Part shown: in pieces, positions 16,665 to 43,623 of the stretch | How positions within the stretch are numbered: position 1 is the first letter of the stretch | Layout: each line of letters starts with the position of its first letter | Source: Hericium rajendrae | Lineage: Eukaryota > Basidiomycota > Agaricomycetes > Russulales > Hericiaceae | Assembly: GCA_033439255.1 (NCBI GenBank) | Contig: CM065879.1 | Location: 2,212,501-2,276,500 of the forward strand | DNA length: 64,000 nucleotides | Direction of reading: 5' to 3' | Translations under genes and position numbers: made by a program | Notes under the pieces: generated by a model | What the model saw: only the letters and a program-made list of their open reading frames with translations | Told to the model about the DNA's origin: nothing | Databases searched by the model: none

Positions 16665-17846
16665 GTCGCCAAAACTTGTCGACCGTTTCCTTCGACGAGT
16701 CGGAAATTCGACGTTCGGATAGCGCGAAAAGGAAGATCAAATCTGATTCAACAAAGCGCTTGCATAGTTCAAGCCCTCAAGCTGGACGATCAGTACAACC
16801 AGACCGGCGTGCTGGATGGAATGAAGGAGGATGAAGGATGCGACCACTCTCCAAAGCCGCAGACCGTACGCGGTACGTAGTAGATCACATGGCCATCTTC
16901 TGCTAACGCGCAAGTTAGGCGCCCTTGGGTTGCTGCTCCTCACGGCTTCCTTCATCATGAGCTTTTGAATTAACCTCGCTAGGCTGCTCGACCTTCTCGT
17001 CTCTACACGATCTCCTGTTTATAAATTCTAGCTGACCAGCATTTATTATGCGTCTATACTTGGAAACTTTGCATGCGCGCGTGTTCCGGAGCACGTTCAA
17101 GGTATCGGTCCTTCTCGTCGCGCAATTTTGAAAGTAGCTGCAGTGAACCGATGCACTTTCCCAGCGCGTTTTGTTCGATTAAAACATCAATTCAGCTTGT
17201 AAGTGCGGGACGAGTAGTCCGAAAGCTGAAAAAGGGGTTTTTTCTGGCTTATTCGGAGATAAGTACGTGCTCTAGACGCCTACAATCCTCGACTCATTTC
17301 ACTCCTCCCCCTCCTAGACATTCTTCGGACCGCGCCTTTCTAGCCGCGGTAGTCAACTCGGAGGTGCTGGTGGGAAATCGAAATCTTTGCGACTGCTCAA
17401 ACCCACTTCACTGAAGCACGCATGGGAGACGGAGAAAAGCTCGGGCAACCTCTGCGTTGAATCTCGCTGTGATCGAGGAATCTGCTGCTTTTTCTGCGTT
17501 ACGAGGGGATTTGTTAGCAACTGATGAGTATCTACTCGAGGCCCGTAAGTACTGAATGTGAAAAAGTACCCGGACAACTCGTCGGCGGTATCCGACTTTC
17601 CCTGCAGTTCCGCGCTGTCGACGCTGCAAGGCCACTTTTCCTCACAAAGTCCCGGAATCGGAAAGTCCGGAGTCCGGTCGTCCGAGCGTCCGAGTCCGGT
17701 CGTCCGAACGTCCGAGTCCGACCGTCCGACCGTCCGGGCCTGGACAGACGGCTAGTCGATCGGGGCGAGATCTCGATCGGGGCTGCAATTACAGCGGCAG
17801 CCATGACGTAGTAATCGGGCAGCAGGGGCGCGATCGTGACCTTCAA
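16665..17846. other. Intergenic region with a short GTCCG repeat
   Basis: Upstream of GWT1. The first part should be the GWT1 promoter and leader. Open frames in it on both strands lack recognisable domains. Apart from the imperfect repeat described separately at 17664-17738 I see nothing further. Confidence 0.5.
17664..17738. repeat. Imperfect tandem repeat of GTCCGAGTCCG-like units
   Basis: A run of about 75 bases built from GTCCG pentamers arranged as CGTCCGAGTCCGGT-like units. It sits about 110 bases upstream of the small LTR element. No function is evident; it is probably a local microsatellite-like expansion. Confidence 0.75.
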
Positions 17847-17851
17847 CAACG

Positions 17852-18024
17852 TGTTGGAATCGGCTGACGAGCAGCACGAGGGTCCAGGGTAGCAGGGAAC
17901 CCGCGCAAACGCGCGGGGGCATCAATTGCACAACGGGCACCATAAGTACGAAAAAACAATATCTAATCTAATCTAATCACGAGCGCTTCGGCTCGTACCT
18001 CCGACACGAAATGATAATTCTACA
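17852..18024. repeat. Left long terminal repeat of the small LTR element
   Basis: This 173-bp repeat starts TGTTGGAATC and ends TCTACA. Inside are a possible hairpin (CCCGCG..CGCGGG), a second one (CGAGC..GCTCG) and three tandem TCTAA units. It matches the copy at 18698-18870 except at one position. Confidence 0.88.
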
Positions 18025-18697
18025 CTCCCCCGCAAGCCAAGCGCGAGTGAGCAGAGCGGAACGGACCAGAAAGGCAGCAAACATGATGAAAGGAAATAAA
18101 GCACTGCACCAAGAAACAGAAACCCACAGAAAACTCCCCCGTACTCCCCCGCAAGTCCATAAGGGGACCACCCTCACCATCGAGCCCACAGCGACGTTGG
18201 TCGTTCGACCAGTGAAAAGCAGCGTGAAGCCGCACGCAAACGAACATGAAACGAGGTCATCCAGATCCGCGTGAGATCTCCGCAATCGCACGGAGTCCAT
18301 GTGCCTCCCGTCGACCCGCAAGACCCTCGACGCAACCTCTGACCCTCCCGGAAAACCCTCATCAAAGCCCTTCCGTACCCCCAGACCTCAGCCATGCCCC
18401 ACAGTCCCGATCTGACCCACTGCACCCTCACCCATACCAGCTAACCCTCCAGAATCACCGACTCGAGCTCCAGGGCTATGCCAACCCGAGCCATGCACGA
18501 TAAGCGAGAGAAGTCGAAGGGGAATGGTGGTCAGCCGAACTTGGCGGCCATGCGAAGAGACGTGATACGCGATGAGAAGACGAGACGTTCGACTTTCAAC
18601 CGAAGAAGGAAACAGCGAGACAGCGAGTGATAAGACCAGCCAGCAGCCGGAATGGCAGCGTCGCAACGAACGACAGACGGGTTATGCCGCGCGTTTG

Positions 18698-18870
18698 TGT
18701 TGGAATCGGCTGACGAGCAGCGCGAGGGTCCAGGGTAGCAGGGAACCCGCGCAAACGCGCGGGGGCATCAATTGCACAACGGGCACCATAAGTACGAAAA
18801 AACAATATCTAATCTAATCTAATCACGAGCGCTTCGGCTCGTACCTCCGACACGAAATGATAATTCTACA
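18698..18870. repeat. Right long terminal repeat of the small LTR element
   Basis: This 173-bp copy of the left repeat is directly followed by the target duplication CAACG at 18871-18875. The same two hairpins and TCTAA triplets are present. Confidence 0.88.
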
Positions 18871-18875
18871 CAACG

Positions 18876-19446
18876 GTCATGTGATTGTGTCGCGTCGTCT
18901 GCACGTTGGTATCCTTCCCCCTTCTTCCTCCCCACTCCCCTTGCCCCCACCATCATTTCTCTCCTGCTGCTGCCTGCCGCCATACCCCTCTACATCTGTG
19001 TCCCATATCAGCCAGGCCTGATCCCTCTGTTCCACGCACAAACAGCCTAGAGCCACTTTCTGACCACCGGTACGCCTCCACTTCCTGCATGATGGATGTG
19101 GGCCTTCCACACTCTCTCCCATGTTCAACGTGTTTGCGTCCTTGTCCAATCAAGTGTGTCTACAACAACAGGAACGGAAATATAGGAAAACTTTACGTAA
19201 ATGTATGATACCCTTTAGTTTTGACGACGTACCGTACCGGCGTGTGTGCTTTTCGTCCAACTAATATTGTCACCACAGTGCTATCGGGCTCGCGCATCTG
19301 GTGGTCATTGCCAGTTCTTTCGATTCATAAAGTCTCCTTCTACGTCTCCTTCTACGTCACCCAGCCTATCTACCAGTTTGGTAGACATCCGTAACAGCAC
19401 GGACGACGCCACCAGTCTAGACAGCGACCATAGCACTGGAGTGATC
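18876..19446. other. Region without a recognised gene upstream of the cysteine-cluster gene
   Basis: The open frame of the following gene extends upstream to about 19246, but the recognisable protein starts at the Met at 19447. The pyrimidine-rich stretch near 18910-18980 may be promoter sequence. Nothing else is seen. Confidence 0.5.
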
Positions 19447-21746
19447 ATGCCTGGTAAGCGAGAGTGCACATACACAGGCTGCGATAACACCCGGATCAAC
19501 AAGAATTGCATACATCAGTTCTGCGCTCCGCATTGCCGTGCCAATGGCAGATGCGATGTGCACAAATCTTCAGCTCGAGCATCTACTCAGCCTGGGGTGC
19601 CCTCACAGCCTGCACCCCTGGCATCCTCATCTTTGCCTGGTCCTTCTAGATCCACTAGTGCTGTTCCTGGAGGGCCCCCTCCAGTACCGGCAGCACCTTC
19701 TGTCACACAGGCAGTGCCATTTGCACCACAGCTACCGCAACCGCAGCCTCCTGCATTTCGTACGCCGCACCTCCAATCTCGTAACGCACCATCCTTTGTC
19801 TGCTTGGATGTTACCCCTGCCTCTCCAGCTCATAACGCCCATGAGTCGCCAGTGCGGTTGAATGTTACCCCTGCATCTCCAGCTCATAACGCCCGTGAGT
19901 CGCCATCTACCTCATTGGTCACCAATTCGGCACAATCTCCTTCAATCTATGCAACACCTCGTGAGCTACCAGGGCCATCTGGGACACGAGGGCAGAACGT
20001 CCTTCTTCCAGCCTCTGCAGCTCCTCTGCAGCCAACGCAGCCGAAGTCAATGCAGCCGAAGCCAACGCAGCCGAAGCCAATGCAGCCGAAGCCAATGCAG
20101 CCACCAACAATGGAAAAACGGTATATGAAGTGGTCGTTCGAGGACCAGCACAATATGGAGCAGGAACTTCACGAGGAACGACGTCGACGTGACCAGGAGC
20201 AGCTCACGAATGCTTGTCTATCCAAACAGAATGTAGTCATCTATGGCTGGCCTCAGGTACGTCTTGCCTTCGCCTTCACCTCCCTAGTCTAGTCAGACTG
20301 AGGGAGATCACCAGAACGGTTCTCCGGTCCTCCATGAGACGCAGGACTACATATGGCCTAACCTAGCTGTCACACCTGCTGTCCTTGCCAAGGTGGACAT
20401 CAGAGAGGGTGCCATTCAGCGCTTCAATCCCTTTCTCAAGCGCTGGGTCAACATCAATCGTGGCTATGTCATCTCCCTGGACAAGCTCAAGGACCTGGCT
20501 ATCTTTGTTCGCCGAGAAGGTGTGACTGATGCTCATGGTCTAGAGGAAGCTGTACAGCAGCATACGCCATCTGCACAAGGGGCAGACACCTACGATGTCT
20601 GGGAGTGGGTTGGGACTCTTCTTCGAGCAGCTTCCGCAGGAGAGGGCCGCTGTTCGTCAGGTACTTGCTGCTGCTGGTATGGAGGCAAACAAGACACGGA
20701 GGGGCAAGACAGTGAAGGCTCCAGAGTTCCGTTCCACTACGGCAGAGCTGCCATCTCAGACCCCACTCATGCCCACCATTCTATCTGCTGCTGCAGCTAA
20801 TATGCCAACCGTTCCTGTTCCGCCTCACAGTGCTTCTCAGCAGCCCACTCCTCATGCAGTTACACCGCTGGCTATTCATCCTGCCTTCAGCAGCCCAGGC
20901 CCAGATTCTCCACCTCGCCTTAGTGCGGCAGAATAGGGCAAAGCACGGGCTCACACTGTGGTCGTTGATGGTAGCGTTCCAGATAGGCTTTCTCAGGCCT
21001 ACCCTCAAGGCCGCAGTCAGACTGCCCCTGTTCCAGCATTTCATCGTGTTCCTACCCCCCTTCCAGCATCAGGAGAGCAGCCGCATGAGTCTCGTCACTT
21101 TCCTACCCCCCAGCTGTTGCCAGAGGTCATTGAGATCTCCTCAGATTCTGATTCTGATGATGGTCCACCTCCTTCAAAGCGTCAGAAGCAGTTCATCGAC
21201 ATTGTGGACCCAACTAGTCCCAATGTAATTGAGCTCACCTCAGTTTCTGGAGTCTCGTCTCCGTCCCTCTCTGAGGCTGTGGACGTCGATGTCAAGCCCA
21301 CACATCTGATGCCATCTGCGTCTCCTTCTGTCTTCACTCCAAGATCGTCCCCTTCACCGCCAGAGCCTTCAGCACCAGCCTGCTCCAAGGCTGTGAAGGC
21401 TTCAACAAGTATCCAACAACGACGGACAGCAGGCTTCAATAAATCTAGAGAAAAGGCGAATAAGTGGCCGCAAGCATATTACGCCTGTGATGTCGTAGCA
21501 ACGTACTGATACTGCCTCAAAGATCCAGAGGAGACTCAAGAAAGCAAACCTGGAACGGTCAAGGAGAGGTTTGAGGCCGTGGTAGGCAAGCGCTGGGTCC
21601 ATGGTACATTCTACGACAACTGGACTCGATAGAGCAACGCGCCGCAGTCCCTTCGGGAGAAATTTGAAGATGCTGGGAGGACCGAGGAGGGTATGTGGTC
21701 GAAGTTCATGGAAGAGTCTCTTGAGATCCTTAACCGTCAAGCTTGA
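19447..21746 (+). pseudogene. Decayed cysteine-cluster protein of an Agaricomycete-specific repeated family
   Basis: The start MPGKRECTYTGCDNTRIN opens a compact Cys/His cluster (CTYTGC, then NCIHQFCAPHC, then C..H), probably a zinc-binding module. A long Pro/Ser-rich linker contains a repeated AHNA-ESP segment and a repeated QPKPTQPKPMQ tract. A coiled-coil-like stretch (EEQELHEERRRRDQEQ-like, near 20130-20220) follows, then a conserved block with IYGWPQ and YIWPNLAVTP. A splice-consistent intron starts at 20257. This architecture recurs in many Agaricomycete transposon-rich regions (recalled, not searched). The copy looks dead: the frame changes near 20600 and again after a stop at 20934, with further stops at 21507 and about 21630, yet recognisable C-terminal sequence (GTFYDNW, GMWSKFMEESL) continues to 21744. 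Some of the frame changes could be unrecognised introns. It converges on the dioxygenase gene. Confidence 0.6.
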
Positions 21747-21934
21747 ACCTTGTTCCTCGGTCTGACATCTTTTGGTACATCCTATTTTTTTTGTCGTTTT
21801 GTTTTTCAGATCTTGTATCCGTAGCACATCATTATGTATAAACCACCTTTTTTTGAGAATAAGTTGCGTCACTGTTACTCACACCATCGCATGATGTGAG
21901 CTACGATATGTCGAAAGGACTAAGTGAATATACT

Positions 21935-24900
21935 CTAGTAGATTACGTGACTCCAGCTGTTTTTACCCTCGGCCCACTTATCCATTTCTCTGTCATTTGC
22001 AAGAACAAATGATGCACGAGTACCTTCATAAGGAAGATTAAAATGAGTTGTTCTGTTCGACTGAAAGCCCGCCAGATCAGCGTTCCTCAGGTCGACAACC
22101 AAATCTTGTTCGTACAGCACAAGCTGTCCTCCAGTAAAGTGGCCAATTGGAATAACCAAACAAAAGTCTTTGTCCTTGCTGTCACGATGTCCGTTGGAAG
22201 AGATATTGAGATTGATGACCAGGCTGAGAAAAGGAGGAGCAGGTGGCTGAGCATGTACCGGAAGAAGATGAGCTTCATAGGAATGAGACTTGTACTGCTC
22301 TGGGAGGTATCGCTTCATCTGATGTTGTGAACAGTAAGGGCACCATGTGTTATAGAGGAGAAAAACTCTTACTGTCAGCTCAATCCAAGAAAACAAGTCC
22401 TTGAAGACGTCCTCCACCAGACTCAAGACGTCTGCATATTCTGACATCTCTCTGGAGCCATACGGAAGGAACTGCGACCGATTTGTTTGAGCAACATCAG
22501 CACGAACCAAATTGTACGGCAAGGCATCCACTGGAGTCCCGTCGCCCTAGATCAGACGTTTGAGATTAAGCATCAACTGAGATTGGGGTAATTGTGCGTA
22601 TGCATACCTTGGTAGTATGGCGATTATAGAACGAGAAATGATAGCTCTCATACCACAGGTCTGGTCCAGCGTCTCTAGAGTTGCGAGCTGCCAGCTCATG
22701 CTGGAACAGGAGTTGCATGTTGGGATATAGGACATCTTTGATCGAGGACAGCATTGCGTTTGACAGAAACAAGAGGAGCGAGCCATCTGAATTCTCCAAT
22801 CGTAAGTAATTTCTATAAATCAGCACAATCAGCCACATAGATATTGGATAGCAAACAAGATACATACGGCACAATGTGAGAGGAGAAAGCAATATAATCC
22901 TTATTGCTACACCTTCTGCCTTGGTCGTAAGCAACCAAGAGCTAAGTTTATATGTATGCGAGTCAGATCACTGCTGAATCCAATGTGACAACAATAAGAA
23001 CATACCTTCTGTCTCAAATCATCCACAGATATTGCAGGGGATGCCAATGCCTTTGCAGCAGCGCCGCATTGCTTCTCTGTCCACCGAAAACTACTATCCC
23101 AGTTAGAATCAGTCTTTTCTTCTTATTGCAAAGGAGATTCCAATTGTAGGACGTCTTGATGACCTCAAGAGTGTCAAGAAAGGACGAGGAGCACAGACCC
23201 TGATGAGGAAGCGTCGATGACACATTATCCAAGGGGAGAGTGGCAAGGGATGTATAAGATGTAGCTGTTGAAGAACAAGAGGAAGATGATGATGATGCTC
23301 CTGAAATATGACGAGCAATCACGTCATCAACAGTCATTGTCTGCTGTGCTTGGAGCAAAGGGATCGCATCGTTGATGCTCCAGGATGTCATATTCCACTG
23401 AGGGAATAAAAATGAGCTGAAGACCAGAACATTGTTTAGCCAGGGAAAAGAATACTGAATCATTCACATCACGTACTTGAAAGGTATAGTTGAGAAGAAG
23501 ATGTCCGACGTCTTGAAGCTAGTTGCATCCATGTAGGGCGGCAAAGGCCATGTTGAAGTGTCCTCATGCGAAAAGAGTCCCCGCAGATCCAAAGGAATCA
23601 GGCCATGGAGACAGTTGATGGCAGGAACAATACGTTGGCAGATAATCTGCCCTACAGGCATATTGGACGGAGGGGATCGCAGCAGAACTCCAATGTTCTG
23701 AGCAGTTGCCGAACTGAAACTGTGGACCTTTTCTCGATGTTGAAGCCCAGCTACGAGCACAAGAGCATAGATGGTCCCTACCAACAAGTTACTTTCAGCA
23801 CAGCACATGAGCATACCTGGCTATGACTCACCTCCAGCTGCAATCAATGCATACTTTGTACCCTTGAGATGCCAATCGTTGAAGGTATTATGAGTCACCC
23901 TGTCCAAGTGAGGCATGTTTGCGATCAGACGCTCAAACAGGTGTGACTTATTCATGGTAGGATATAATAAAAGGAGACTGGATGAATGATCTCGTAAGGT
24001 CACTGCAAGCTAACAAAAGAAAAGCATGACAAGAACCCACTGTTCGGTCTTGATAACAAACTGCATTAAGCTCAACATAGTCGCAAAGCTAAGTCCAACA
24101 TTGGTGCTCGTAGCCGCCCAGCACTGGGCCGCAACATTCTGAAAGTCTTGTTCCGGTGACAGCGATCGACCCGCAATGTATTGCACAGATACTGTCCGAA
24201 CAGAGTCTGCCCAGACCTCCAGAATATCAAGGCTTTTAGCCTTTGCACGCTGAATGGACTGAGCTCCCTCCCCAACTGCCTGCCACGCACCAAGCAGAGC
24301 AAGGAAGCTTGATGCATTGGAGTCAGCAACGAAGGCTTTGTTGGCCGTCCACTGCCAGTTTGCTGGCCTCCCTGGTGGAACGCCCCCTCGCGGGCATGGT
24401 GAAGGAACTCGCGGGGGCAATTCACCTCCCCAAAAACTGCCTGCTACGGCCCCACTTTGATTTCCTCCACGAGAACGCAAGTTATATGGTTTGGCACATA
24501 CATTGCCTGACGACGCTGCATGGACAGGCCCCGGCCCAGCAGGCTCATCCCGCTCGGACATCTCATCTTCGCTGTCTTCATCATGAACCCATCGTTGGGG
24601 CTCTTGGGGCTCCGGTTCGTGTTTGCTCTGCTCCAATGACTGGTCTTCGATGCGGTGTTCGTCAAGCTGGAACGGCTCCTGGAGATTCATCATCAATGGA
24701 AGAGCCAGTGGTTCCAAACTGAGAGGACTCCATGTCAGGGGGGTCGAGGTGAGAGGACATGACCGTGGAACAAGACGCGAAGGTTGGGCGACGGTGCTAC
24801 AGCCGTGTGCACGAATGTCGGTCTCAACATGCAAGGTGGATGCCAGGAGCTGTAAACTATTCAGAAAGCACAAAATTAGCTAGACAACATCCAAGATAAA

Positions 24901-26064
24901 CATAGCCACATACTCAGAGCCTGACTCAGAGTCCTGCGAAGCAGCATGCGACGCTAACAAGACCAGTGCAAGGACAACCTCTTCCTCCCCTTCTATAGCT
25001 GGCCCAGCATGCCTATTGCACAGGTCGTTGATAAGGCACAGTGTACGCGCCAGGAGGGCAGATGAGATAAATGGCATGGGAGAGGGAGTGGGAAGAGCAG
25101 GACCTGAGATGCGAGATGCGAGATGCGAGACGCAGAAGACCAGCCAAGGCCAGCCAGACGCGTCACGATGCACAGCATGGGAAAGATACTGGGCACCCCA
25201 GAGACATTTCCACAGCTGGTTAGCTGCAGAGGAGACAGTGAAGTTTAGCTGCTGGAGGAGACATTTGCATCTGTGGCAAATGTCTGTGGACTTCCTGGTC
25301 AATGCAAGACACTAACACGACCAGTTGCTAAAGAGAATCAATGTGTCGTAATGCATTGTTCGAAGATCAAAACGACATGCTCTATCTAGTTAACAAAGAT
25401 AATACTCGTTATGCGCACAAGCAGGAGGAAGCTCAGTTAATAGTTGCATGGGCAAGGATGGGAGGACACTATGTGTAGAGATAAAAGAATCTTGGTAAAA
25501 AGCTATTAGCTTCAACTCACGATCTAGGTACTCTTCTTGCTTCAAACACAGCAGTGACGACTCCAAGGCCGCAGGAAACCTCTTCCATGAGGACATTATG
25601 ACCCTAAGGTCCTCAAACCATAGCATTCTATCCCGCCAATCCCGCTTCTGGCACCCGTATTTGTGGCCTACGATAACGTCACCGTAGTTGGGACCGTCTG
25701 GCCAAACCTTCTTCCTTTGCTCGGCCCGCCTGCTCTGTCGATCCTTGTCCCATTCTGCAGCTGAGATTTGTTGTTCGTCATGATGTTCAAACTCCCAAAA
25801 GATATGAGCCATGTTGAGCTTGTACAGGATAGTCGCACGTATAACTGGATGATTAGATATAGACGGGTTGGCGACACAACCACAAGAAAGCGGGCGATTA
25901 ATGAATCCCATGCCAAGACTGCCTGAAAACAGAGAGCCAAAGAATTGATTGGAGCCGTGGGCCCAAAATTTGTCCAGTTCGTATGGTAGGTGGTCTTTGG
26001 GCCACAGGCGCTTCCAGTGACTGTTGCCTAAAAAGGAACGCCACTCCGACGGTGAAAATGTAAG
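21935..26064 (-). CDS. TET/JBP-like 2-oxoglutarate/Fe(II) dioxygenase, C-terminal part (gene split by a retroelement)
   Basis: The last exons (22531 to 21935) encode a double-stranded beta-helix dioxygenase core of the TET/JBP family. The sequence LVINLNISSNGHRDSKDKDF carries the metal-binding H-x-D (HRD), followed by GHFTGGQLVLYE. The block SNRTTHFNLPYEGTRASFV supplies the second metal His (THFN) and the Arg (GTRAS) expected to bind 2-oxoglutarate. Family enzymes oxidise 5-methylcytosine or thymine in DNA. Upstream exons (about 22550-26064) form a long region of unknown fold with an acidic Glu/Asp segment near 24560-24700, and a block (FSPSEWRSFLG, HWKRLWPKDHL) that starts at the retroelement junction. 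Many short introns are present. TGA/TAG-bounded frames agree with a single multi-exon gene, but exon borders are inferred. The 5' exons lie beyond the insertion at 33151-34443, so the gene is probably inactive unless a truncated product is made. Confidence 0.72.
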
Positions 26065-26487
26065 TGTCAAGACTCGGTCGTAGACAGCAGAGAACCACCC
26101 AAGTCACCAGCGATGATGGGAGCGAGAGAGCAGAGAGCGACTAGCAGTGCAGTGACCTGTATTGGAGGTACAGTACGGTACAGATGAAATGGACAATCTA
26201 GGGAAATAGGTGAGCGACAGGGAGCCTATAAGTACTGGGACGACAATGGGAAAAGAACAATGGACACCATAATGGGTCGAACAATAGAGTGAGAACAATG
26301 GTGGCCAAAAGAAGAACAATGGGAGGGAGAACAATAGGATGTCCCAAAGGGGAACAAGGGCATGGGTGAAGGATAGCCCCAGGTCATGTGAGGAAGTGAA
26401 CATGTGATGGGGCTGCTGGAGCACATGACCGACGCGATGCCTTGATGGCAGAGAAGAAGGCGGAGAGAAATGGAGCGATCCGTGACA
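26065..26487 (-). repeat. 3' LTR of Ty3 element A
   Basis: This 423-bp terminal repeat is bounded by TGTCA..TGACA ends and preceded by GTAAG at 26060-26064. In the element's own orientation it is the downstream LTR because the polypurine tract adjoins it. Confidence 0.93.
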
Positions 26488-29400
26488 TCACCCCCTCTCT
26501 AAGACGCACTTTCGCCTGGAGTGCGTGATGAGCATGGACGGGTCGAGGTAGATGAGTCCACGAAGATTGGGAGCCTTGAGTGCATGCAGATGGTGGGTGT
26601 AGAAGTCAGTGATTGCACCATGGGCATTGGAGAGGGAGGTACGTGAAAGCCACTGATTTTCTGAATCAGGGTAGCCTGCCCATTTGACGAGATATTCAAT
26701 GCCGCGTTTGTTCCAGGTGAGACGAGCATCGAGGACAGACTCAACTTCGTACTCTTCCTCGCCCTCCACAAGGTCAGGTGGTGGTGCAGGGAAGTTGGGA
26801 CCATGAGCATTGGTTTCCTTGTAAGGGGACAACAGGGACGTGTGGAACACCGGGTGGATACGCCAGGTGGGCGGTAGCTTCAGTCGATAAGAGACTGGGC
26901 CCAGGACGTCAGTGATTTCGAAAGGTCCCAGGCGTCGATCAGCAAGCTTAGCTTTGGGTCGCGTGGTTTTGATGTTCTTGCCATCGAGCCAGACCTTGTC
27001 ACCAACCTGGAAGTGGATGGTGTCGTGCATATGGTCCTGGTTGTTGCACTTCATGAGATCAGCAGCTGTTTGAAGGCTGGCCTGGACCTCAGTGCGAAGT
27101 TGTTCAAGGTGACGGAAACGATCCTCGATGGCAGGTGTAGACGATGTGGGGTTGACAGTGGGGATGGCAGTGGGAATATAGCCGAGGAGCATTTCAAATG
27201 GAGCTCGGTTAGTGGCGCTGTGGATACGGTGGTTGTGCGAGAACTCAGCATAAGGGAGCCATTGGACCCAATCATCCTGACGGTAGTTGCAGAAGGTACG
27301 AAGGAACTGCTCGAGTTCTTGATTGATGCATTCTGACTCGCCGTCGGTCTGTGGATGATAGGCGGTGCTGAGGGAGGACTTGATACCAAGTTTGTCAAAG
27401 ACGCCACACATGACTTTGCCTGCATACTGTGGGCCATGATCAGAGATGAGGCGTTCCCAGAGGCCGTAGTTCCGATAAATCCTGTCAAAAAGGATGTCGA
27501 CTGTGCCATCACTGGTAATGGTCTCTTTACAAGGAGTGAAGGAGACGTGCTTTGTAAAATGGTCGATGACCACATTGATGGAGTCATAGCCTTGGCATTC
27601 TGGGAGTTTGACGATGAAGTCCGAGGTAATGTCTTGGAAGGGACGGGTAGGGATGGCATTGGGAATTGTTTCAACATGAGGGCGGTGATTTTGAACCTTG
27701 GTGGCCTGGCAGGTAGCACAGCCATCAACATAATCACGAACAAAGACAGACATACCGGGCCACCAGTAGTTGCGACTGAGGAGCTCATAGGTCTTGTAGC
27801 ATCCTGGGTGACCAGCCATGGGGGTGTCGTGATGCAGCTTGACGATGTCCCGACGAAGGTCCTTGTCAGCAGGGATGTAGACTTTGCCACGAAAGAGGAT
27901 GAGGCCATCCTTGTAGTTCCATTCTTGGAGGTTCTTGATGAGAGAGCGAGGACCATTGTTCAGGATCACATCAAGGGCTTGAACAACCTCAATGTCCTTG
28001 GTCTTGGCATTGCAAATGTGTTGGCAGAGATCAGCATTGCCAATGGACTTGACAGCAGCTGGACGTGTAGCACGGATCTGGAAGTACTTGGGGTCGAGGA
28101 GGACACGATCAGAGTTGTCATCGTCCACCCCCTCTCTATGGTCAGGTCGTCTCGACATGGCATCTGGCCGGTGGTGAATACCGGGTTTGTGGATCAGGGT
28201 GAAGTCAAAACGAGTGAGGAAGAGGGCCCAGCGAGCTTGACGACGACTCAGCTTTTGGGCAGACTTGAAGTATTCCAGGTTCTTATGGTCAGTCCAGATC
28301 TCCACAGTATGGGGAGAACCTTCCAGGTAGTGGCGCCAGGCTTCGAGGGCACGGATGATGGCCAGGAGTTCCTTGTCATAGACGTCGTAGTTGCGTTTGG
28401 GGGCGGTGAAGGCCTTGGAGATGTAAGCGACAGGGTGCCATTGCTCGTCCTCCCCACGCTGGGATAGGATACCTCCTGTGGCATAGTCTGAGGCATCGAC
28501 CTCAACCAGGTAGGGTTTGGACGGGTCAGGCATGATAAGGACTGGGGACGAGGTGAACGCAGCTTTAAGAGCCTCAAAGGCATGTTGACATTCAGCAGAC
28601 CAGGCCCAAGGATGGTCTTTCTTGGTAAGGTCAAACATGGGACGAGTGACTTTGGAGAAGTCCTGGATAAAGTGTCGATAGAAGTTGCCAAAGCCAACAA
28701 AGGACTGGACGTCCTTGACGTTACGAGGGGCAGGCCATTCAGCAATGCCTGCAACCTTGACGGGGTCCATGGCGAGTGTGTTATGGGAGACGATGAGACC
28801 GAGGAACTCAACTGAGGGCTGCTCGAACGAGCACTTCTCTGGTTTGAGGAAGAGGTCATTGTCCTGGAGGCATTGGAGGACTTTGTGCACAAGGTCGCGA
28901 TGTTCTTCGAGGGTTTCAGTGAAAATGAGGATATTGTCCATGTAGATGACGACTTTGCCCGTATCAATGAGATCCTTGAAAAGTTCATTCATCATTCCTT
29001 GGAACGTGGCAGGGGAGTTGGTAAGACCAAAAAACATCACCAGGGGTTCAAAGAGACCACGGTTGGTTTTCAAGGCGGCTTTCCATTCGTCGCCCTCCTT
29101 GATGCGAACGTTGTTGTAACCCCAACGAACGTCCATCTTGGAGAAGACTTTGGCACCCTTGAGCTTGTCAACGAGTTCAGAGATAAGGGGCAGGGGATAT
29201 TCATTCTTGATGGTGCCTTTGTTGAGGGTGCGATAGTCCTGGATGGGGCGTAGTTTTCCATCTTTTTTCTTGATAAAGAAGAAGGGACTCGCCATAGGGG
29301 ATTTGGAAGGACGGATGTAGCCTTTCTTGACCTGGTCATCAAGGAATGAATCGAGGTCCTCCTGCTCGGTAGGAGCCATGGGATAGACCTTGCATGAACG

Positions 29401-30489
29401 GGGTTCAAAACCATCTTTCAGGTCAATGGCGTGATCCCAAGGGCGATGTTCGGGGAGGCGATGAGAGGATTCCTCATCGAAGACAGGTTGGAAGTCCTGA
29501 TACTGAGGGGGAACCATCTCAGCAAAGGACTTCTCTGCAACACGCGTGGCCACATGCTCCGCCAGTTTCTGAGCATTGGTGAAAGAGCGACGGATACAGA
29601 TGGTGTGTTGATAGTCGGGGTCATCGTCTGGTGGGGGTGGTGTGTCCCAGTCAGGGAGAACACCAGCTAGACGAAGGCCCTCTTCAACCCAGTCGTCATC
29701 GACATTAGGTCGGGGGTCATCGTCCTCGGTGAATAGACGTGCAGGGACTTTGGACAGGTGGATGCGGTGAAGGCGGACACCTTGGACTCGGCAAGCGGGG
29801 ATCACGTATTTGGGAAGTGGAGCAGCGACAAATGGTGGGGGCAGTGGGAGCAATGGAGGGGGGCAAGGTGGGGGGAGCAGTACTGCAGCAGCGCTGAGGA
29901 CTGGTGGACGAGGAGCTGAGTGGCGGCGTTCAGTGCGAGTGGACAGATTCTTGACCGGGGGTTTATTCAGAGTGCAAGAGGGAGGGCAGCGAGTCATGTC
30001 GACACGACGAGAGACCCAATCAATTTCAGGGTTGTGTTCCTGTAACCAATCGGTCCCAAGGATAATGTCGTAGTCACCAATGTCAACGAGATAGAACTCA
30101 GCTGTCTCCTCATGGAAGGACGTCGAGTCCTTGGCGTAAATACGGATGTTCTGGTTGACTGAATAGCGAACCCAGCCCATGATGTTTTCGGAGTTGTCCA
30201 CATTGCAAACGGGAAAGGGTTTAGGGAGTTTTTTGAGGGGGAACTGGTGTTTCTTGGCAAACTCGGGGTGTATAATGATGCCTTCTGCACCACTATCGAG
30301 AAGTGCCTCAGCGTCGATTTGTTTCTTGATCGGGGCAGTGATAATCTTGGCCTGGAGCGTAATGGACGGTGTCTGACGGTTGGGCCTGATAGCGGACATG
30401 CGCAAAGATGATGGATACGATTGCTCACAGGGGTCGGATAGTACAGAGAAGTGATTCGATGGATCAAAGAAATGTTTCTTGCCACCCAT
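26488..30489 (-). CDS. pol: Ty3 element A Pol polyprotein (PR-RT-RH-IN-chromodomain)
   Basis: One open frame of 1,333 residues. Domains in order: aspartic protease with LLDSGAEG (about residue 60), reverse transcriptase with RPIQDYRTLN and a FGLTNSP block (about 420-560), RNase H with a VEVDASD start (about 670-790), integrase with an HHCC zinc region (HHDTPMAGHPG..CATCQ) and a core bearing SDHGPQY and HPQTDGESE (about 930-1150), and a C-terminal chromodomain (EYEVESVLDAR..YLVKWAGYP). The chromodomain is thought to guide integration to particular chromatin. Gag lies directly upstream, ending within 25 bases. As a fossil it appears whole. Confidence 0.93.
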   Translation of the reverse strand: MGGKKHFFDPSNHFSVLSDPCEQSYPSSLRMSAIRPNRQTPSITLQAKIITAPIKKQIDAEALLDSGAEGIIIHPEFAKKHQFPLKKLPKPFPVCNVDNSENIMGWVRYSVNQNIRIYAKDSTSFHEETAEFYLVDIGDYDIILGTDWLQEHNPEIDWVSRRVDMTRCPPSCTLNKPPVKNLSTRTERRHSAPRPPVLSAAAVLLPPPCPPPLLPLPPPFVAAPLPKYVIPACRVQGVRLHRIHLSKVPARLFTEDDDPRPNVDDDWVEEGLRLAGVLPDWDTPPPPDDDPDYQHTICIRRSFTNAQKLAEHVATRVAEKSFAEMVPPQYQDFQPVFDEESSHRLPEHRPWDHAIDLKDGFEPRSCKVYPMAPTEQEDLDSFLDDQVKKGYIRPSKSPMASPFFFIKKKDGKLRPIQDYRTLNKGTIKNEYPLPLISELVDKLKGAKVFSKMDVRWGYNNVRIKEGDEWKAALKTNRGLFEPLVMFFGLTNSPATFQGMMNELFKDLIDTGKVVIYMDNILIFTETLEEHRDLVHKVLQCLQDNDLFLKPEKCSFEQPSVEFLGLIVSHNTLAMDPVKVAGIAEWPAPRNVKDVQSFVGFGNFYRHFIQDFSKVTRPMFDLTKKDHPWAWSAECQHAFEALKAAFTSSPVLIMPDPSKPYLVEVDASDYATGGILSQRGEDEQWHPVAYISKAFTAPKRNYDVYDKELLAIIRALEAWRHYLEGSPHTVEIWTDHKNLEYFKSAQKLSRRQARWALFLTRFDFTLIHKPGIHHRPDAMSRRPDHREGVDDDNSDRVLLDPKYFQIRATRPAAVKSIGNADLCQHICNAKTKDIEVVQALDVILNNGPRSLIKNLQEWNYKDGLILFRGKVYIPADKDLRRDIVKLHHDTPMAGHPGCYKTYELLSRNYWWPGMSVFVRDYVDGCATCQATKVQNHRPHVETIPNAIPTRPFQDITSDFIVKLPECQGYDSINVVIDHFTKHVSFTPCKETITSDGTVDILFDRIYRNYGLWERLISDHGPQYAGKVMCGVFDKLGIKSSLSTAYHPQTDGESECINQELEQFLRTFCNYRQDDWVQWLPYAEFSHNHRIHSATNRAPFEMLLGYIPTAIPTVNPTSSTPAIEDRFRHLEQLRTEVQASLQTAADLMKCNNQDHMHDTIHFQVGDKVWLDGKNIKTTRPKAKLADRRLGPFEITDVLGPVSYRLKLPPTWRIHPVFHTSLLSPYKETNAHGPNFPAPPPDLVEGEEEYEVESVLDARLTWNKRGIEYLVKWAGYPDSENQWLSRTSLSNAHGAITDFYTHHLHALKAPNLRGLIYLDPSMLITHSRRKCVLERG

Positions 30490-30512
30490 GGACGACGTGA
30501 CTGGGGGGCGCT

Positions 30513-31502
30513 TTAAAAACCCTCAACCATATCCTTTAATGCAGCCTTTGCCTCTTCCCTCTCTTCCTCGCTCAAGTCCTTCAACTGCAACGATAAGTCG
30601 GCGATGGACCTGTTGATGGCGGGGACAGCAAGGGCAGTGGCTGCATCTTCTGGAGCTACTCCCGGGGCAGAGCCGGTTTCTAGCGCTCGGACACGAGGGA
30701 TTGGGGCACGGGGGTTGGAGTCGGCATTGAGGGGGCAGTCGCGGAAGCCATGGCCCTTCTGGCAGCAGCGGAAGCAACCGCCCTCATGCCTGAGACGCTC
30801 ACGGTCAGGCTCTGAGAGTTTGGGCAGTGGGGCACCTGTAGCAGCAACTGTGCGGGATCGGCCAGTAGATGTGGACTGAGGGGAGTGAGTGCTCACCGGG
30901 GTGCGCCCAGTTGTAGGGCGGGGACTCTGGAACCGGGTGCGCATGAGGTAGGCAGCATTCCTGTCACGGGCCCTCGCCTTCCACTCATCCAGGGTGGTGG
31001 GCGTGGGGTAGCTGCACTGGCAATCATCCCGCAAGGCACTGTTGAGGCCATGCAGGAACCAATCGATCAGGGCCACATCGTTGTAGCTGGTGCAAGGAGC
31101 GAAGGACTCGAACTCGGTAATGTAGTCGACTACTGGGCGCGTACCCATCTGGAGGGTCTGGATGGCATGGGAGGCATCCTTGGAGTTGTCGAGGGGGGAG
31201 AAGTCCAAATTGAAGCGAGTTCGAAGGGCAGCGAGGTTGGCGTAGCGAGGGACATGGGCTGGAGATGTGTTTGCAGCCACAAGATTGTCATCCTCAAGGA
31301 TCTCCTTGACACGCTGAGTGGCCCACTGGCTGGCAATAGGGCCCTGGCAGAGGTTGAGGAAGAGGGAGATCTGGGCGGTATCATCTTTATACCAGGTAGA
31401 GTTGGCGCGAAGGAATAAGCGAATACGCAACTGGAACTCCTTGGACTTGGAACGATCTCCCTCAAAGGGAGCAGGTTTGATGCCAATCTCGGGGTTGGAC
31501 AT
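30513..31502 (-). CDS. gag: Ty3 element A Gag with CCHC zinc knuckle
   Basis: A frame of 329 residues from MSNPEIGIKPAPFEGDRSK. The region LFLRANS..WATQRVKEIL to FESFAPCTSYNDVALIDWFLHGLN is the retrotransposon Gag capsid domain. A zinc knuckle CFRCCQKGHGFRDCP follows near 30745-30790, then a short acidic coiled C-terminus (LSLQLKDLSEEEREEAKA). Coding-like, Pro-rich sequence continues upstream on the same strand toward 32200, so the natural start may be earlier. Gag forms the particle that packages the element RNA. Confidence 0.88.
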   Translation of the reverse strand: MSNPEIGIKPAPFEGDRSKSKEFQLRIRLFLRANSTWYKDDTAQISLFLNLCQGPIASQWATQRVKEILEDDNLVAANTSPAHVPRYANLAALRTRFNLDFSPLDNSKDASHAIQTLQMGTRPVVDYITEFESFAPCTSYNDVALIDWFLHGLNSALRDDCQCSYPTPTTLDEWKARARDRNAAYLMRTRFQSPRPTTGRTPVSTHSPQSTSTGRSRTVAATGAPLPKLSEPDRERLRHEGGCFRCCQKGHGFRDCPLNADSNPRAPIPRVRALETGSAPGVAPEDAATALAVPAINRSIADLSLQLKDLSEEEREEAKAALKDMVEGF

Positions 31503-32727
31503 GTCATCGGGCGGCTGAACAGGGGGAGCTGGGGCAATGATCGGTTTGACGTTGACGGTGGATGTGGATGTAACAGTGGTAATGGGTGGAGCCGGTGAGG
31601 GGATTGGTATTGGGGTTGGGATGCGAGGGGGTAGCGGTGAGCGGAGGACTGCGAGCCGGGTAACTCGCTCTTGCTCGCGGGCTTCTAGGACTTGGTGAGA
31701 GAGAGCGAGTTCAGGTTCAGTGATGAAAACGCTACTGGCCTGCCAAAACCACTGATCTCTTCCTTCTACTAGGTTTGGTCTCCAGCCAACGACTAGGCGT
31801 CGAGAGTTGGAATGGTATGCATAGTACTTCCTGGTAATGGCGTTGAAGATGATACCTGTTGGTACAAAGAGGGGTTCGGTGCGTGCAGGAGGGGAGTCGA
31901 TACTAGGAGGGGCGACGGTGGGGAGCGGTGGAGTGGCTGGGTGTAGGCGGTGGTGTTCTTCTCTGGCAACATCGAAGTCGACGAGTTCGAGGTAGGGGAA
32001 GTCTTCACGCTCAGCGAAGTACCACTGGCGGGTGGCAGGGTCTTGGTGAGAAAAGTGGATCCGGGTGATGCCAGCAAGGGTGTAAACGTGGTAGTCCCCA
32101 AGGGACTCGAAGATCCCGAGTGGGAAGGGTGCAGTGGTCTGGAAGCGGGGGTCGGTGGAATCAATGGTGACAACCTACAGGAAGTCTGCCGCAACTGGAC
32201 GACGTCCAAGGGCACGAGGGTACAAGGTGGTGGAGTACGGGGTTCTGAGGAATCGGTGGCCGAGGCGTTCTCTGGCCCACACAGGCTCAGGCGAGGGTTC
32301 TGGGGTGAAGAAACCTAGTGTGCAAAAGGGAAATGAGGTCGATGGCAGGATGCTCGCAGGGGATCCTCGGTTGGGTTGGCGACAGTGGTAGGCAATGTCC
32401 GAGGCACCAAACGTGAATTCTTGCAAGTCGATGTCAAAAGCAACTCGAATTCGAACGTATAAGGCAATGGAGATAGCACCTGCGCGTGGTTTCCACGATC
32501 TTAATCGAAACCAAACTCCTTCAGCTTCCCAACGCTTCACAGCACAATAGTGGAGGAGGGGAATGAGTGCACTGCCCTCGATGGTGTTGGCGATGGGGAA
32601 GGGGAGATGAGGTTGATGGAATGGATGTCGAGATACGGTGAAGATGTCGGCAGTGAAGGGTTCAAAGAAGAGAGGTATGATGGGCGATAGTAGGGAGGTG
32701 AGGCGGGTGTATGAGAAATCGTCCAGG

Positions 32728-33150
32728 TGTCAAGACTCGGTCGTAGACAGCAGAGAATCACCCAAGTCACCAGCAATGATGAGAGCGAGAGAGCAGAGAG
32801 CGACTAGCAGCGCAGTGACCTGTATTGGAGGTACAGTACAGTACAGACGAAATGGACAATCTAGGGAAATAGGCGAGCGACAGGGAGCCTATAAGTACTG
32901 GGACGACAATGGGAAAAGAACAATGGACACCATAATGGGTCGAACAATAGAGTGAGAACAATGGTGGCCAAAAGGAGAACAATGGGAGGGAGAACAATAG
33001 GATGTCCCAAAGGGGAACAAGGGCATGGGTGAAGGATAGCCCCAGGTCATGTGAGAAAGTGAACATGTGATGGGGCTGCTGGAGCACATGACCGACGCGA
33101 TGCCTTGATGGCAGAGAAGAAGGCGGAGAGAAATGGAGCGATCCGTGACA
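32728..33150 (-). repeat. 5' LTR of Ty3 element A
   Basis: This 423-bp terminal repeat is followed by GTAAG at 33151-33155. It should contain the promoter of the element, which reads on the minus strand toward gag. I could not match the bases just inside it to a tRNA primer site. Confidence 0.93.
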
Positions 33151-34443
33151 GTAAGGTTGCGGTCTTGAATGTGCCGGAAGCCCCAGCATCATGCCAAACA
33201 ATACCAATGATAGAAGAACGTATTTCTGGTCTTCTCTTCTGCTGGGCCCCAGAACAGGTGGATCGGTGGTAAATGATATCGCCATCCACGAGTCAGTTCC
33301 TTTTCCATGAAAATGGGCGCTGTATTTGGAGTGGATGTGGCCCAGGTCTCGATGACGCTGGGCACCCAATCTGGGCGGGCAACCATGTTTTGAACCCGGC
33401 GGCTGCTCTGAGTATGCTTCAGTCGTGAGGCATTCACAAGATTACGTTCATGTGCGACTGGCATCATCTCGTGAGGAACACGATTTGGCAAGGGAGAAGG
33501 AATACAACTCACGGTCTTGTTGTTGGTGCATTTTCATTCCCATAGCTCTCTGTGTGAGTTGTTCAACGTCATCACGTGGAGCGTATCCACGTGCCGCGAG
33601 CTCAAAGAGGGGGCCATTAGCTGACTCTTCGACTGACCCAGCCGGCACTCCTTCGTCCCGCCACTCGCTGATCTCAGCACCAACGAAATTACACCAATCT
33701 ATCAACCGAAGGAAGCCCTTTTGATATGAGGGTGAAGGCAGGTGGTATTTGGAGAGGGAGACATGCAGATACACGGTTATATTCCTAGATTCAAGCATCT
33801 GGTACACGCGGGGGTCGGTGGTGATACTGCCACGAGTGGGAATACATGTTAAGGCTTGTCGGTTTGAAGTGCTACTAGTGAACCAATCACAGAAAGCTTG
33901 CAACTCAAGCAGGTGGCGCTGAATTGTTCGAACAGCCTCGATGATATCGCGCCTGGAGCATGGGGCATCTTTCAGTCTTATCAGAGCAGATAGTATGCAG
34001 CGAGGTGCGGTGGAGGGAAAGGATACATGACGATAACAGGAAAAGTCATTGATACGAGAGAAACACAGTTGCGTGCGTGCTTGAAGAAGTTCTCGCTCGT
34101 TGCACAATTCGTCGATCCACTTCTGCGCTAACACAACGCGCGTGGGGAAAGTGGGGTGGGGACATAGATCGGATCGTGTGGGCAGGCGATACAGAACGGA
34201 GCATGAGGTGTTCTTGGTAGGTAAGCGTATCCAAGCCAAGTACAGGGAACGAGGATCAAAAGGTTGCGGGAAGCGGGTCCAGTTGTGCGGACCCCACAAA
34301 CCGTCGCTGCGAACCAACGCCGTCTTGTCATCTGGCAATTCAGGGATATAGGTCGCATGCGCTGCGACGACCATCTCTCCGGGTGCCCATCCAAGGGCCC
34401 AACATGCGAATGGAAGGTCTAAGCGACGTAGAGAAGCAGACAT
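33151..34443 (-). CDS. 5' exons of the gene interrupted by Ty3 element A
   Basis: From Met at 34443 (MSASLRRLDLPFACWALGWA) a long exon runs to about 33510, ending MHQQQDRE before a GTGAGT donor. A second coding block (NASRLKHTQSSRRVQNMVARP, then GWRYHLPPIHLFWGP) reaches the retroelement junction at 33150. The exon is rich in Trp, Arg and Cys and has no domain I recognise. It faces the same way as the TET/JBP-like exons at 21935-26064. The insertion target GTAAG lies inside this transcription unit, so I read these as the 5' part of the same gene. An upstream Met at 34512 in the same frame is a less likely start. Confidence 0.55.
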
Positions 34444-34630
34444 CTTAAGGGAAAAAATCAAAATGTAATGAGTCAGTTTAATGACAACCACAAGGAAACT
34501 ATGCACAGTCATACCTTATCTTCACTGGCCTATATACTAGCTACGGTAGCTACGGTGCCGTGGAGATCCGATCAAAGTATGGGCCGACAATTTCAGCACC
34601 TCAGCAAGATACTGGGGTGATTGAAGTATA

Positions 34631-34772
34631 TGAGATCTGAGCGCACAAAGCGTGGAGCTCTTTTCTCATACACCGTGCCCAATAGGAGGCAAAGAGTGAG
34701 ATGGGAGATGGGGAAGAAGTATGTACGATCGGAGCGCACAAGGCGTGGAGCTCGTTTCATGCAGACAATGCC
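34631..34772. repeat. Short direct repeat pair
   Basis: The segments at about 34631-34680 and 34723-34772 share the core GAGCGCACAA(A/G)GCGTGGAGCTC. They are spaced about 92 bases apart, upstream of the split dioxygenase gene. These could be promoter elements or remnants of a tandem duplication. Confidence 0.6.
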
Positions 34773-35181
34773 AGAGATGGCCAGCACTGAGTATATCTAG
34801 TGAGAGCTACAAAACAAAGCAATGAGAAGGCAACAAGAAGGGTCAGCAAATGGGGAATCAAGATAAATTTACTCACATTTGGCAGATCTAGACAGAGTCG
34901 AGACGAATTAGCAGAGGAACAAAGTGGGAAGGAGAGTGGACAGCAGAGACGTGAAAAAGTGGCGAGGTGAAGCTGAGGTGTCCAAGGCTCGCCTGAGGAT
35001 GACATAAGCAGGATCTATTGCACGCCTATGAGACGACACCTCTGACAGTGTGACAGGCGTCCGTACCAAGTCCTCCCTAGTCCTCCTCGCATACAATTCC
35101 TGTAGCACTCGTCTTTTCTGTTTTTGCATGAACAAGCCCTGCTATATAATTCCATAGGCGATTAATATAGATGAGCCAGCG

Positions 35182-35527
35182 TAATCACCCTCTCTTCTCT
35201 CGATGATTCCTCGAGGGTGCAGCTACCTCGGCCGTCCCATTTCTCTTTTTTTTTGCAGGTATACATGACTAGGCCGCAGCGCTGCACCAATCGACTCCAC
35301 GCTCTGTGCGTCGGGAGGTGCGTCGCCCAGGTCGCTTTGGTCATCTTTGTGCCGTAACCACCCTCTCTTCTCTCGATGATTCCTTGAGGGTGCGGCTACC
35401 TCGGCCGCCCCATTTCTCTTTTTTTTTGCAGGTATACATGACTAGGCGGCAGCGCCGCACCAATCGACTCCACACTCTGTGCGTCGGGAGGTGTGTCACC
35501 CAGGTCGCTTTGGTCACCTTTGTGCCT
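35182..35527. repeat. Tandem duplication, two copies of 173 bp
   Basis: Copy 1 spans 35182-35354 and copy 2 spans 35355-35527. Both open TAA(T/C)CACCCTCTCTTCTC and contain the run CCCATTTCTCTTTTTTTTTG followed by CAGGTATACATGACTAGGC. Differences are few and mostly transitions. No coding potential is recognised. Confidence 0.85.
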
Positions 35528-36301
35528 GTGCCAACACTGCGCTTCAGACCACCCATACATGATTGACCGATTGTCCTGCCATCCCGGCGTTTCTTTCTCC
35601 ATACATGTAACGGATGCCGGGTGCCGAGTGATGTCATGCGACGCCAGGCGCCGGGAGCCATCACGCGCCAACACGGAATCTCGAGGTAGCCAGGCCCGGA
35701 AGCGCCGCCTTCCCGATTAGGTAGTCAAGCCACACCGGCCGACCTACTGTACAGTTGAGGGCGGACCTGCAATCTTATTTTCTTCCGTATTTAGTGTACG
35801 TCTTGTGTAGGAAAAAGATCATCATTTTCATTGTCTATCATCTTCCGAATCTTACTTCTCTTTTCTTGCTTTTTCCTTTCTCTCGAACGACATCTGCACG
35901 CGCGCTCCGAACGAGCGCCCGCGCCTTGCTTCTGAACGAGGAAATCGAAGCGCGCCCACATACGCAAATCCGGCCAAAGGCTGTCTTTGGTGAGTGGACC
36001 GCCTCGTCTTCTTTTTCTCTCCACGACGCGTCGTCCGAGGTAACAGGCGAGTTCGCCTGCCTCGTCCTCCGTCCCTCCGATTCCTAGGAGTCTTTGTCGA
36101 GCCGAACTGAGACTTCTCGTTCGACTTTGACTCGGGCGCCTCGCTTGGACTCGAGGACCGCACACACCTCTGCTCTCCAACGCCCGCTAGCCACGGTGAG
36201 GACTCCCGGTACTTGCGACCGTTGCGTCACAAAGGTGGACATATCCGGAAGTCCTTCACCCCTAGCCGACCTTCTTTCCTCCAAATCTCAAAGCTTTCGA
36301 T

Positions 36302-37435
36302 ATGGCTCCCAAGACTCGCAGCAGCCGAGCGGATCCGCCCGTGGCTCCGACGCCTGCTCCATCTCCAGTTGCCCCGGATGGAGAAGGCGACGCTGGCGAT
36401 CCATCCCTAGCTGTACCATTGCCGGATGCCGACGAGGCGAATTCGCCTCAGCGGGATCCTCCTCCCCATCTCGGGCTGCCGCTCGCGGACGACTCTCTTT
36501 CGACTTCGCGTGGATCTAACGAGGACGCGCCCGCACTCGCCCTTCACGTCGCGACAGCGGCAGCCATCTATGATGAGTTTCAACAAACTCTCGTCGATCG
36601 TACCCTCCTGCCAGAGTACATAGCCGGTCGCAATTTCGCGCGCTATACCGAGGCTGTTATCATCAATCGCAGAATCCAGGCAGACGGATCACCTCGCTTC
36701 CAATTATCTTTCACGGAAGCATCGGTATTACACACCCTCGTCGAGCGCGTCCAAGGCTTCCTCGACCGTCTGTTCCAGCTGTTCCCTTCCGAAATGCACG
36801 CCGGTCAGATAGCATACCAAATCGATCCCAACTTCCGCCTGCAAGGCGTGCTGGAGGGCTGCGAATCCGCTATGCAAGTCTTCATGAACTGGCAAGTGCT
36901 CGGATATCGTCTTCAGCGCGGGGCTCGATTCGTCGAGAAGTACCGCCAGGAGTTTGTCACTGAACAGAGACCTCCGTCTCCAGCCTCCTCCACTGCTTCT
37001 GGCTTACAAGCTCGCCAACAGACGGCAGTTCACTCAGAATATCTGCGCCAACTCTATGCTTCGAATTCCATCAAAACGCGGCTCCCTGTTCACCGTCAGG
37101 AACTCTTCCAACAGAATCCTCCCGTGTCCCTACGGGCCATTATTCCAGTTCCCAACGAGGTCCGCAACCTGGACTGCCCTCCGTACCCATCCGAACAAGA
37201 CAGGTCGTCAGCTCCGTTAGCCACCTCCGCTTTCGCCGCTTCAGGACAGTCCTCGTTGTCACAAGCCGACGTATCGGCCATAGATCATGGGCTGACTATG
37301 GCCGAAGGGGATTCGACTTACCGCGGCCCCGATTATTCCCATCGATACGACGCAAGGCCTCTTAGTAATGCTACCTTCGACCAAGGACTGCGAACCCGTC
37401 CGAGTTCGACGGCGCTACCCATAGAACCAGCCGTG
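36302..37435 (+). pseudogene. gag: Ty3 element B gag, 5' part
   Basis: Starts MAPKTRSSRADPPVAPTPAP with a Pro/Asp-rich leader. A helical region with repeated Gln/Arg follows (IAGRNFARYTEAVIINRRIQ; a VQGFLDRLFQLFPSEMHAG segment). The coding sequence runs directly into the left end of the KDZ transposon. It is treated as a fossil. Confidence 0.75.
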
Positions 37436-43619: not shown

Positions 43620-43623
43620 CGTC

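Follow-up and report, generated by a model that had tools for sequence, protein, structure and literature searches.

Introduction

The study of fungal KDZ and TET/JBP is reported to have begun with Iyer et al. (2014, PNAS). DNA transposons that carry a TET gene (TET+ transposons) include Kyakuja, a KDZ element with an AG-type TET, and Plavaka elements with a PE-type TET, the latter reported, in the available text of Kojima 2025 (PMC12730594), from two Agaricales species, Agaricus bisporus and Gymnopus confluens. The same text defines the PE type by HxE in place of HxD, describes the AG type by the conservation of Asp337 and Gly/Ser331, and gives Asp337 of CcTET, the enzyme of Coprinopsis cinerea, as essential for activity on 5-methylcytosine (5mC). 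Here we analyze a locus of Hericium rajendrae at which a gene for a TET/JBP-like dioxygenase stands next to a second gene, called gene N in this work, and a Ty3/chromovirus retroelement. The locus lies in a stretch of 64,000 nucleotides (C2:2212501-2276500, hereafter the window) of a 46.8-Mb genome in 19 contigs, whose KDZ, Plavaka and CcTET-like content points to a basidiomycete; contigs are numbered with C and matched loci with L, and coordinates given without a contig are window positions. All copies, relatives and counts of TET-like, gene N, KDZ and Plavaka sequences reported below come from this one genome.

Compared with the AG-type TET of Kyakuja and with CcTET, the dioxygenase and its relatives (the clade) share the HxD...H...R core and the carriage as transposon cargo, whereas they are distant in sequence, have a different N-terminal part, are borne by Plavaka in six of nine places, and have no equivalents of Gly331 and Asp337. 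TET+ Plavaka with a PE-type TET, as far as the available text of PMC12730594 describes it, is alike in its Plavaka carrier, in termini of the CATC..GATG sort and in a 2-bp flanking repeat, but has HxE where the five aligned members of the clade have HxD. In 15 other places, gene N precedes the transposase of KDZ transposons with CxC cysteine clusters (PF18758, PF18803), whereas the window holds gene N in a unit inside which no KDZ domain was found. The chromovirus shows nothing unusual when compared with known Ty3/chromovirus long terminal repeat (LTR) retrotransposons, being alike in gag, in pol with a Chromo domain, and in the 5-bp duplication. Our reading, to which we assign a probability of about 0.78, is that the locus consists of two separate genes in a 9.9-kb transposon mosaic, that the chromovirus broke gene N, and that the dioxygenase gene is still open.

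Results

Gene N and the dioxygenase gene as separate genes

On the minus strand, the segments 34443-33156 and 26059-25390 form a single gene of ~650 amino acids, gene N. Its 5′ part (33156..34443) begins with the ATG at 34443 and holds ~425 of the ~650 codons, after which the chromovirus intervenes, and its 3′ part (25390..26059) ends in a stop codon at 25390-25392. Comparison of the last 222 residues with 22 loci (L021-L042), which represent 18 copies besides that of the window, showed that the position of the stop is identical in 17 of the 18, the remaining copy (L023) being disrupted earlier. The copy on C3, which is 84% identical across the first 331 residues, resembles the window DNA from ~430 bp 5′ of the gene N ATG to 6 bp beyond the stop. 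The TET-like gene gave 11 matches that represent nine places, namely the window, C7 (97%), C14 (52%), and six others at 36-47%. Gene N lies upstream only in the window and on C7, and none was found upstream within 20 kb in the other seven; the place at C2:33.7 kb has a 29% gene N match 13.5 kb downstream. Because the gene N stop is conserved, the C3 similarity ends right behind it, and most TET-like places are without gene N, the two are predicted to be separate genes rather than one reading unit. Gene N as the N-terminus of the TET-like protein is rejected on account of the same stop and of the end of the C3 similarity there.

The dioxygenase gene was traced at ~21938..24708 on the minus strand by tblastx and tblastn comparison with its relatives in the same genome. 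It comprises several exons (~24708-24037, 23955-23833, 23775-23476, 23113-23000, 22817-22605, 22546-22370 and 22318-21938, probably with a short extra one near 22910), of which the start, at ~24708 or somewhat earlier, and some edges are approximate. The catalytic part (21938..22546) is found in one open frame at 21935-22546 with the sequences ...NGHRDSKD..., ...TTHFN... and ...GTRASF..., which provide HRD, the H of THFN, and the R of GTRAS; because the relatives have stops there, a short in-frame intron probably lies at ~22370-22319. The relatives align piecewise to ~24192-21950, indicating a conserved N-terminal part that belongs to the TET-like gene itself, with ~300 amino acids aligning. 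Across the 659 codons compared, the exons are free of stops in both the window and the C7 copy.

The chromovirus occupies 26065..33150 on the minus strand, in the same orientation as gene N, with a gag frame at 32174-30513 and a pol frame at 30522-26488. The latter encodes reverse transcriptase, RNase H, integrase and a C-terminal Chromo domain (E = 4e-10), which are the marks of a Ty3/chromovirus. The two LTRs (26065-26487 and 32728-33150) are 423 bp each with TG..CA ends and differ at nine positions, all of them transitions and five at CpG sites. The element is flanked by the target duplication GTAAG (26060-26064 and 33151-33155), and the C7 copy of the locus (L040, 98% identical) provides the empty site, running uninterrupted through the insertion point with a single GTAAG. 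The gene structures predicted here place the insertion in gene N, not in the TET-like gene. Window gene N carries an in-frame stop at ~33190, immediately before the insertion, which the C7 copy does not have. For the left LTR, 39 further full-length matches at 99% were obtained (40 of 394 candidates were scored, and some are surely both LTRs of one element), indicating that the chromovirus family is recent and abundant.

An earlier, sequence-only reading of the window had rightly pointed to the HRD, THFN and GTRAS signatures, present in the open frame at 21935-22546 on the minus strand, and to a Ty3 element with a GTAAG duplication, which is borne out by the LTRs, the Chromo-bearing pol, both GTAAG copies and the single GTAAG at the C7 empty site. 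It had also joined 34443-33151 and 26064-21935 into one transcription unit, a TET-like gene split or truncated by the retroelement and endowed with a long N-terminal targeting region. This part has to be given up: gene N ends at 25390 and the TET-like gene begins downstream of it, the gene that was split is gene N while the TET-like exons are without stops, and the supposed targeting region is largely gene N, the TET-like gene having an N-terminal part of its own. Separate transcripts with a break at 26064, which that reading had named as grounds against itself, are in effect what the predicted gene structures suggest, with the breakpoint at 25390.

A divergent TET/JBP-like clade

To assign the dioxygenase to a family, we aligned five TET-like members (the window, C7, C14, one of the C4/C2/C2 copies, and one of the C9/C4 copies); the place on C18 (L015) was kept out as degenerate, with HHN where the others have HRD. 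H173, D175, H221 and R230 are invariant in all five, giving the HxD...H iron triad and the R for 2-oxoglutarate. Tet_JBP (PF12851) was matched by all five members scanned, with a best E of 1.2e-8, and is the sole Pfam family common to them, a TET-like signal beyond what chance would give. The window copy reached E 4e-4 and 20.1 bits when spliced, and 0.0076 and 15.9 bits as a single exon, both below the curated cut-off of 34.9 bits; it was absent from a genome-wide Tet_JBP search (46 places), in which its relatives scored up to 30.2 bits. By its predicted product, the window gene is TET/JBP-like, not a curated Tet_JBP member. The clade profile aligned to four CcTET-like proteins of the same genome at E = 2.4e-5 and 18% identity with H, D, H and R in register, and the profile of those four finds CcTet (7vpn) at 7.9e-25. 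PHROGs returned one weak match to a family of unknown function in all five members (best 0.0023), and an NCBIfam scan of the members gave nothing useful.

When residues are mapped through their spacing and the hhalign alignment, the clade has Cys182 where CcTET has Asp337, and a gap in place of Gly331. Set against the types as given in the available text of Kojima 2025 (PMC12730594), the clade does not show the conserved Asp337 and Gly/Ser331 of the AG type, and HRD in all five aligned members differs from the HxE of the PE type. With Asp337 replaced, 5mC is therefore not to be assumed as the substrate of the clade. In the same genome, Tet_JBP scores above the cut-off in 38 places, at least 31 of which lie 2.1-5.9 kb upstream of a KDZ domain.

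The clade is found mostly with a different carrier. Six of the nine TET-like places (C14:67161, C4:1122950, C2:3866205, C2:33734, C9:549659 and C4:348936) have a Plavaka transposase ~6-7 kb upstream, on the other strand and back to back with the TET-like gene. The C2:33.7-kb and C4:1123-kb copies have 12.4 kb in common at 99.5%, with different flanks. The element at ~C2:25000-37414 is bounded by inverted repeats of 16 bp, CATCTGGAAAAAGTGT, with CA next to each of them, and contains a Plavaka frame (E 2.1e-43); in this element and its C4 copy, a transposase and terminal inverted repeats surround the TET gene as in a TET+ Plavaka, which is not the case in the window unit. Judging by these features, we regard the divergent, largely Plavaka-borne TET/JBP-like clade as a putative addition to the already known TET+ DNA transposons.

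For the enzyme, the sequence-only reading fared unevenly. Its broad proposal of a TET/JBP-like, transposon-linked gene near a recent chromovirus agrees with the Tet_JBP matches in all five members and the Plavaka carriage in six of nine places, and the profile match that it called for in the window exon exists, but at 15.9 bits it stays under the cut-off. The identity as a 5mC oxidase is not supported, given the distance of the clade from CcTET and the Cys at the Asp337 position.

Gene N in the company of KDZ elements

Gene N has 37 matches in the genome; in 16 of them (15 genes, one in two pieces), a KDZ domain follows on the same strand after 3.2-4.0 kb. Locus L042 carries gene N followed by CxC2 (E 2.8e-29) and then KDZ (E 5.4e-29). 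KDZ neighbors were counted among the matches used from a genome search for the domain that gave 172, the weakest unlisted. Among the remoter gene N matches (26-31%), several instead have a KDZ on the other strand. The 15 KDZ domains that have a gene N partner are without any of the 46 Tet_JBP matches within 7 kb, and gene N is found where other KDZ elements have TET, upstream of the transposase. From its genomic company, gene N is a candidate accessory gene of KDZ elements. Its window pieces found nothing credible in Pfam, the best being a NUT match at 0.05, those of L041 and L042 gave no Pfam match at E up to 1, and gene N gave no match in PDB. That gene N is the KDZ transposase itself is rejected, as it has no credible Pfam or PDB match and as L042 has a KDZ gene of its own behind gene N.

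Near contig ends, at C1:9-24 kb, C17:25-40 kb and C18:396-411 kb, a TET+ KDZ element and an element with gene N and KDZ stand in opposite orientations. Upstream of a gene N copy, C3:1666447-1666935 (L022:3-491) is an open frame with an HKD...RHGN...RYS pattern that resembles yet another Fe(II)/2-oxoglutarate (2OG-Fe(II)) oxygenase; against 2OG-FeII_Oxy_3 it gave a non-significant E of 0.19, and its neighbors are gene N and a Plavaka remnant (C3:1671767).

The two-copy unit and its CpG decay

The window and C7 have in common a unit (17643..35604 and C7:389207-402108) of ~9.9 kb minus inserts, at ~98% identity. Its left edge is 5′-CACAAAG in both copies, preceded by unrelated sequence, and its right edge in the window may be cut by an adjoining repeat. 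Near this end lie two 173-bp direct repeats (35180..35525), an 83-bp piece of which recurs in a C10 KDZ element, upstream of its gene N. The two C10 KDZ copies revealed no element edge, their similarity continuing past the compared stretch. Among the KDZ matches listed, none falls at C2:2230143-2248104, and the window unit does not qualify as a KDZ element on this count. In the C7 unit, gene N contains a 2.77-kb insert bounded by 165-bp terminal repeats; with the chromovirus in the window copy and this insert on C7, gene N is therefore disrupted in both copies by different elements. Opposite window 33360, C7 gene N contains a ~205-bp near-palindromic insert, probably a small element with inverted repeats.

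Across 9,857 aligned columns, 183 transitions and 7 transversions separate the two units. CpG sites that have become TpG/CpA in one copy only number 152, the window accounting for 130 and C7 for 22 (binomial p 8e-20 if sites are taken as independent). The ratio of observed to expected CpG is 0.57-0.75 at 20-34 kb and at least 0.89 in the rest of the window, and the genome has five cytosine methyltransferase matches. The window has lost 60 of 197 sites in the stretch from 22 to 26 kb, 32 of 166 between 18 and 22 kb, and 38 of 165 from 33 to 35.6 kb, a weak gradient away from the chromovirus (Fisher p = 0.016 for 22-26 versus 18-22 kb) that we do not count as evidence. Some other repeat pairs are even (11:13 for the C10 pair, 13:9 for the C3/C7 gene N pair, 20:21 for L003/L008) and some are unequal (23:2 for L003 versus L004, 23:3 for L003 versus L005, 19:5 for L027/L028). 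The window copy has decayed by CpG-to-TpG change, the pattern expected of methylated DNA; it was probably methylated, and it may be silent as a result. As for the silencing by the retroelement that had been proposed from the sequence, if the copy is silent, the unit-wide CpG decay is an equally likely sign of the cause.

Neighboring features

The unit contains a convergent gene (19447..21509, plus strand, with exon edges and 3′ end approximate), which has a weak CxC6-like cysteine cluster at its N-terminus (E 0.011-0.035, under the cut-off) and was found only in the two unit copies. A 1.0-kb insert at 17852..18870, missing from C7, has 175-bp terminal direct repeats, TG..CA ends and a CAACG duplication, resembling a small LTR element or a terminal-repeat retrotransposon in miniature (TRIM). 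At C7:406008-406589 (L045:3608-4189), 4 kb past the C7 unit, there is a frame with a CxC5 cluster (E 1.1e-10). In the window, a 1.8-kb repeat (35606-37435) with 98% copies on C11, C1 and C5 starts exactly at the end of the unit. The stretch 37420-44000 has ~100% identical inverted copies at C2:2300157-2306730 and C2:2277445-2284023 and, together with KDZ matches at 46195-46581 (plus strand) and 62365-62751 (minus strand), forms a very young repeat cluster.

Discussion

We propose that the unit is a DNA-transposon mosaic with two genome copies, in which a KDZ-type gene N would have been joined to a TET-like gene that elsewhere is Plavaka-borne. The unit would have been duplicated first, and the chromovirus would then have entered gene N of the window copy. 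The dioxygenase is most likely an Fe(II)/2-oxoglutarate oxygenase that would alter methylated bases on transposon DNA and in this way relieve silencing, a role that Kojima proposed for other TET+ transposons, and gene N may have an accessory role comparable to that of the dioxygenase.

Several observations weigh against this reading. Within 12 kb of window gene N and of its three nearest relatives (C7:397-401 kb, C7:434 kb and C3:1668 kb), the matches used include no KDZ, and two of these relatives have a Plavaka remnant 3-4 kb downstream (C3:1671767 and C7:431353). Three of the nine TET-like places (the window, C7 and C18) are without a nearby Plavaka match, and a search of solved structures with the clade profile, up to E 10, returned no TET chain, unlike that with the four CcTET-like proteins. 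The ratio of nonsynonymous to synonymous substitution rates (dN/dS) between the window and C7 copies is 0.52 for the TET-like gene and 0.87 for gene N, values based on few changes that cannot show selection. The same CpG bias occurs in other repeats and is therefore general to the repeats of this genome, the imbalance being no proof of the chromovirus as its cause. In the 9.9-kb unit, no transposase, target duplication or inverted repeat was found.

This last result suits a segmental duplication, in which the unit would be an accidental mosaic of degraded repeats that is not mobile, and so does the finding of just two copies. The sharp left edge with unrelated flanks and the recurrence of the right-end repeat in a KDZ element argue against it, and we put its chances somewhat short of even; it is compatible with the two genes being separate. 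An unlikely explanation is that the domain belongs to a 2OG-Fe(II) oxygenase of another family, with a protein or RNA substrate, that is TET/JBP-like in its metal-binding motifs only. The window copy under the Pfam cut-off, the missing TET chain among solved structures, the Cys at the Asp337 position, and weak matches of two of the five members to 2OG-FeII_Oxy_3 (best 0.034) would fit such an enzyme, whereas Tet_JBP is the only Pfam family matched by all five, and the carrier is Plavaka, some of which are known to carry TET according to the available text of PMC12730594. A single long TET/JBP gene running from 34443 to 21935 and cut by the chromovirus would account for both parts having the same strand and order and for their staying together at 98% in the C2 and C7 copies, but is highly improbable given the gene N stop in 17 of 18 other genes and the seven of nine TET-like places without gene N upstream.

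Beyond two separate genes in a transposon mosaic, a bolder proposal, which we consider doubtful though conceivable, is that the clade may be a further transposon-borne TET/JBP type beside PU, AG and PE, distinguished by HxD, no Asp337, an N-terminal part of its own, Plavaka carriage and possibly another base or product, and that gene N may likewise counter silencing, as a second factor not described so far.

There have been few tests of the sub-types and substrates of the known TET+ DNA transposons. A Plavaka-borne HxD clade without the Asp337 of CcTET would provide a test case from nature for the base on which such enzymes act. The pair of units with and without the chromovirus, with its 6:1 difference in CpG loss, is a place to ask whether a nested retroelement attracts methylation onto a transposon-derived unit that carries a putative counter-measure.

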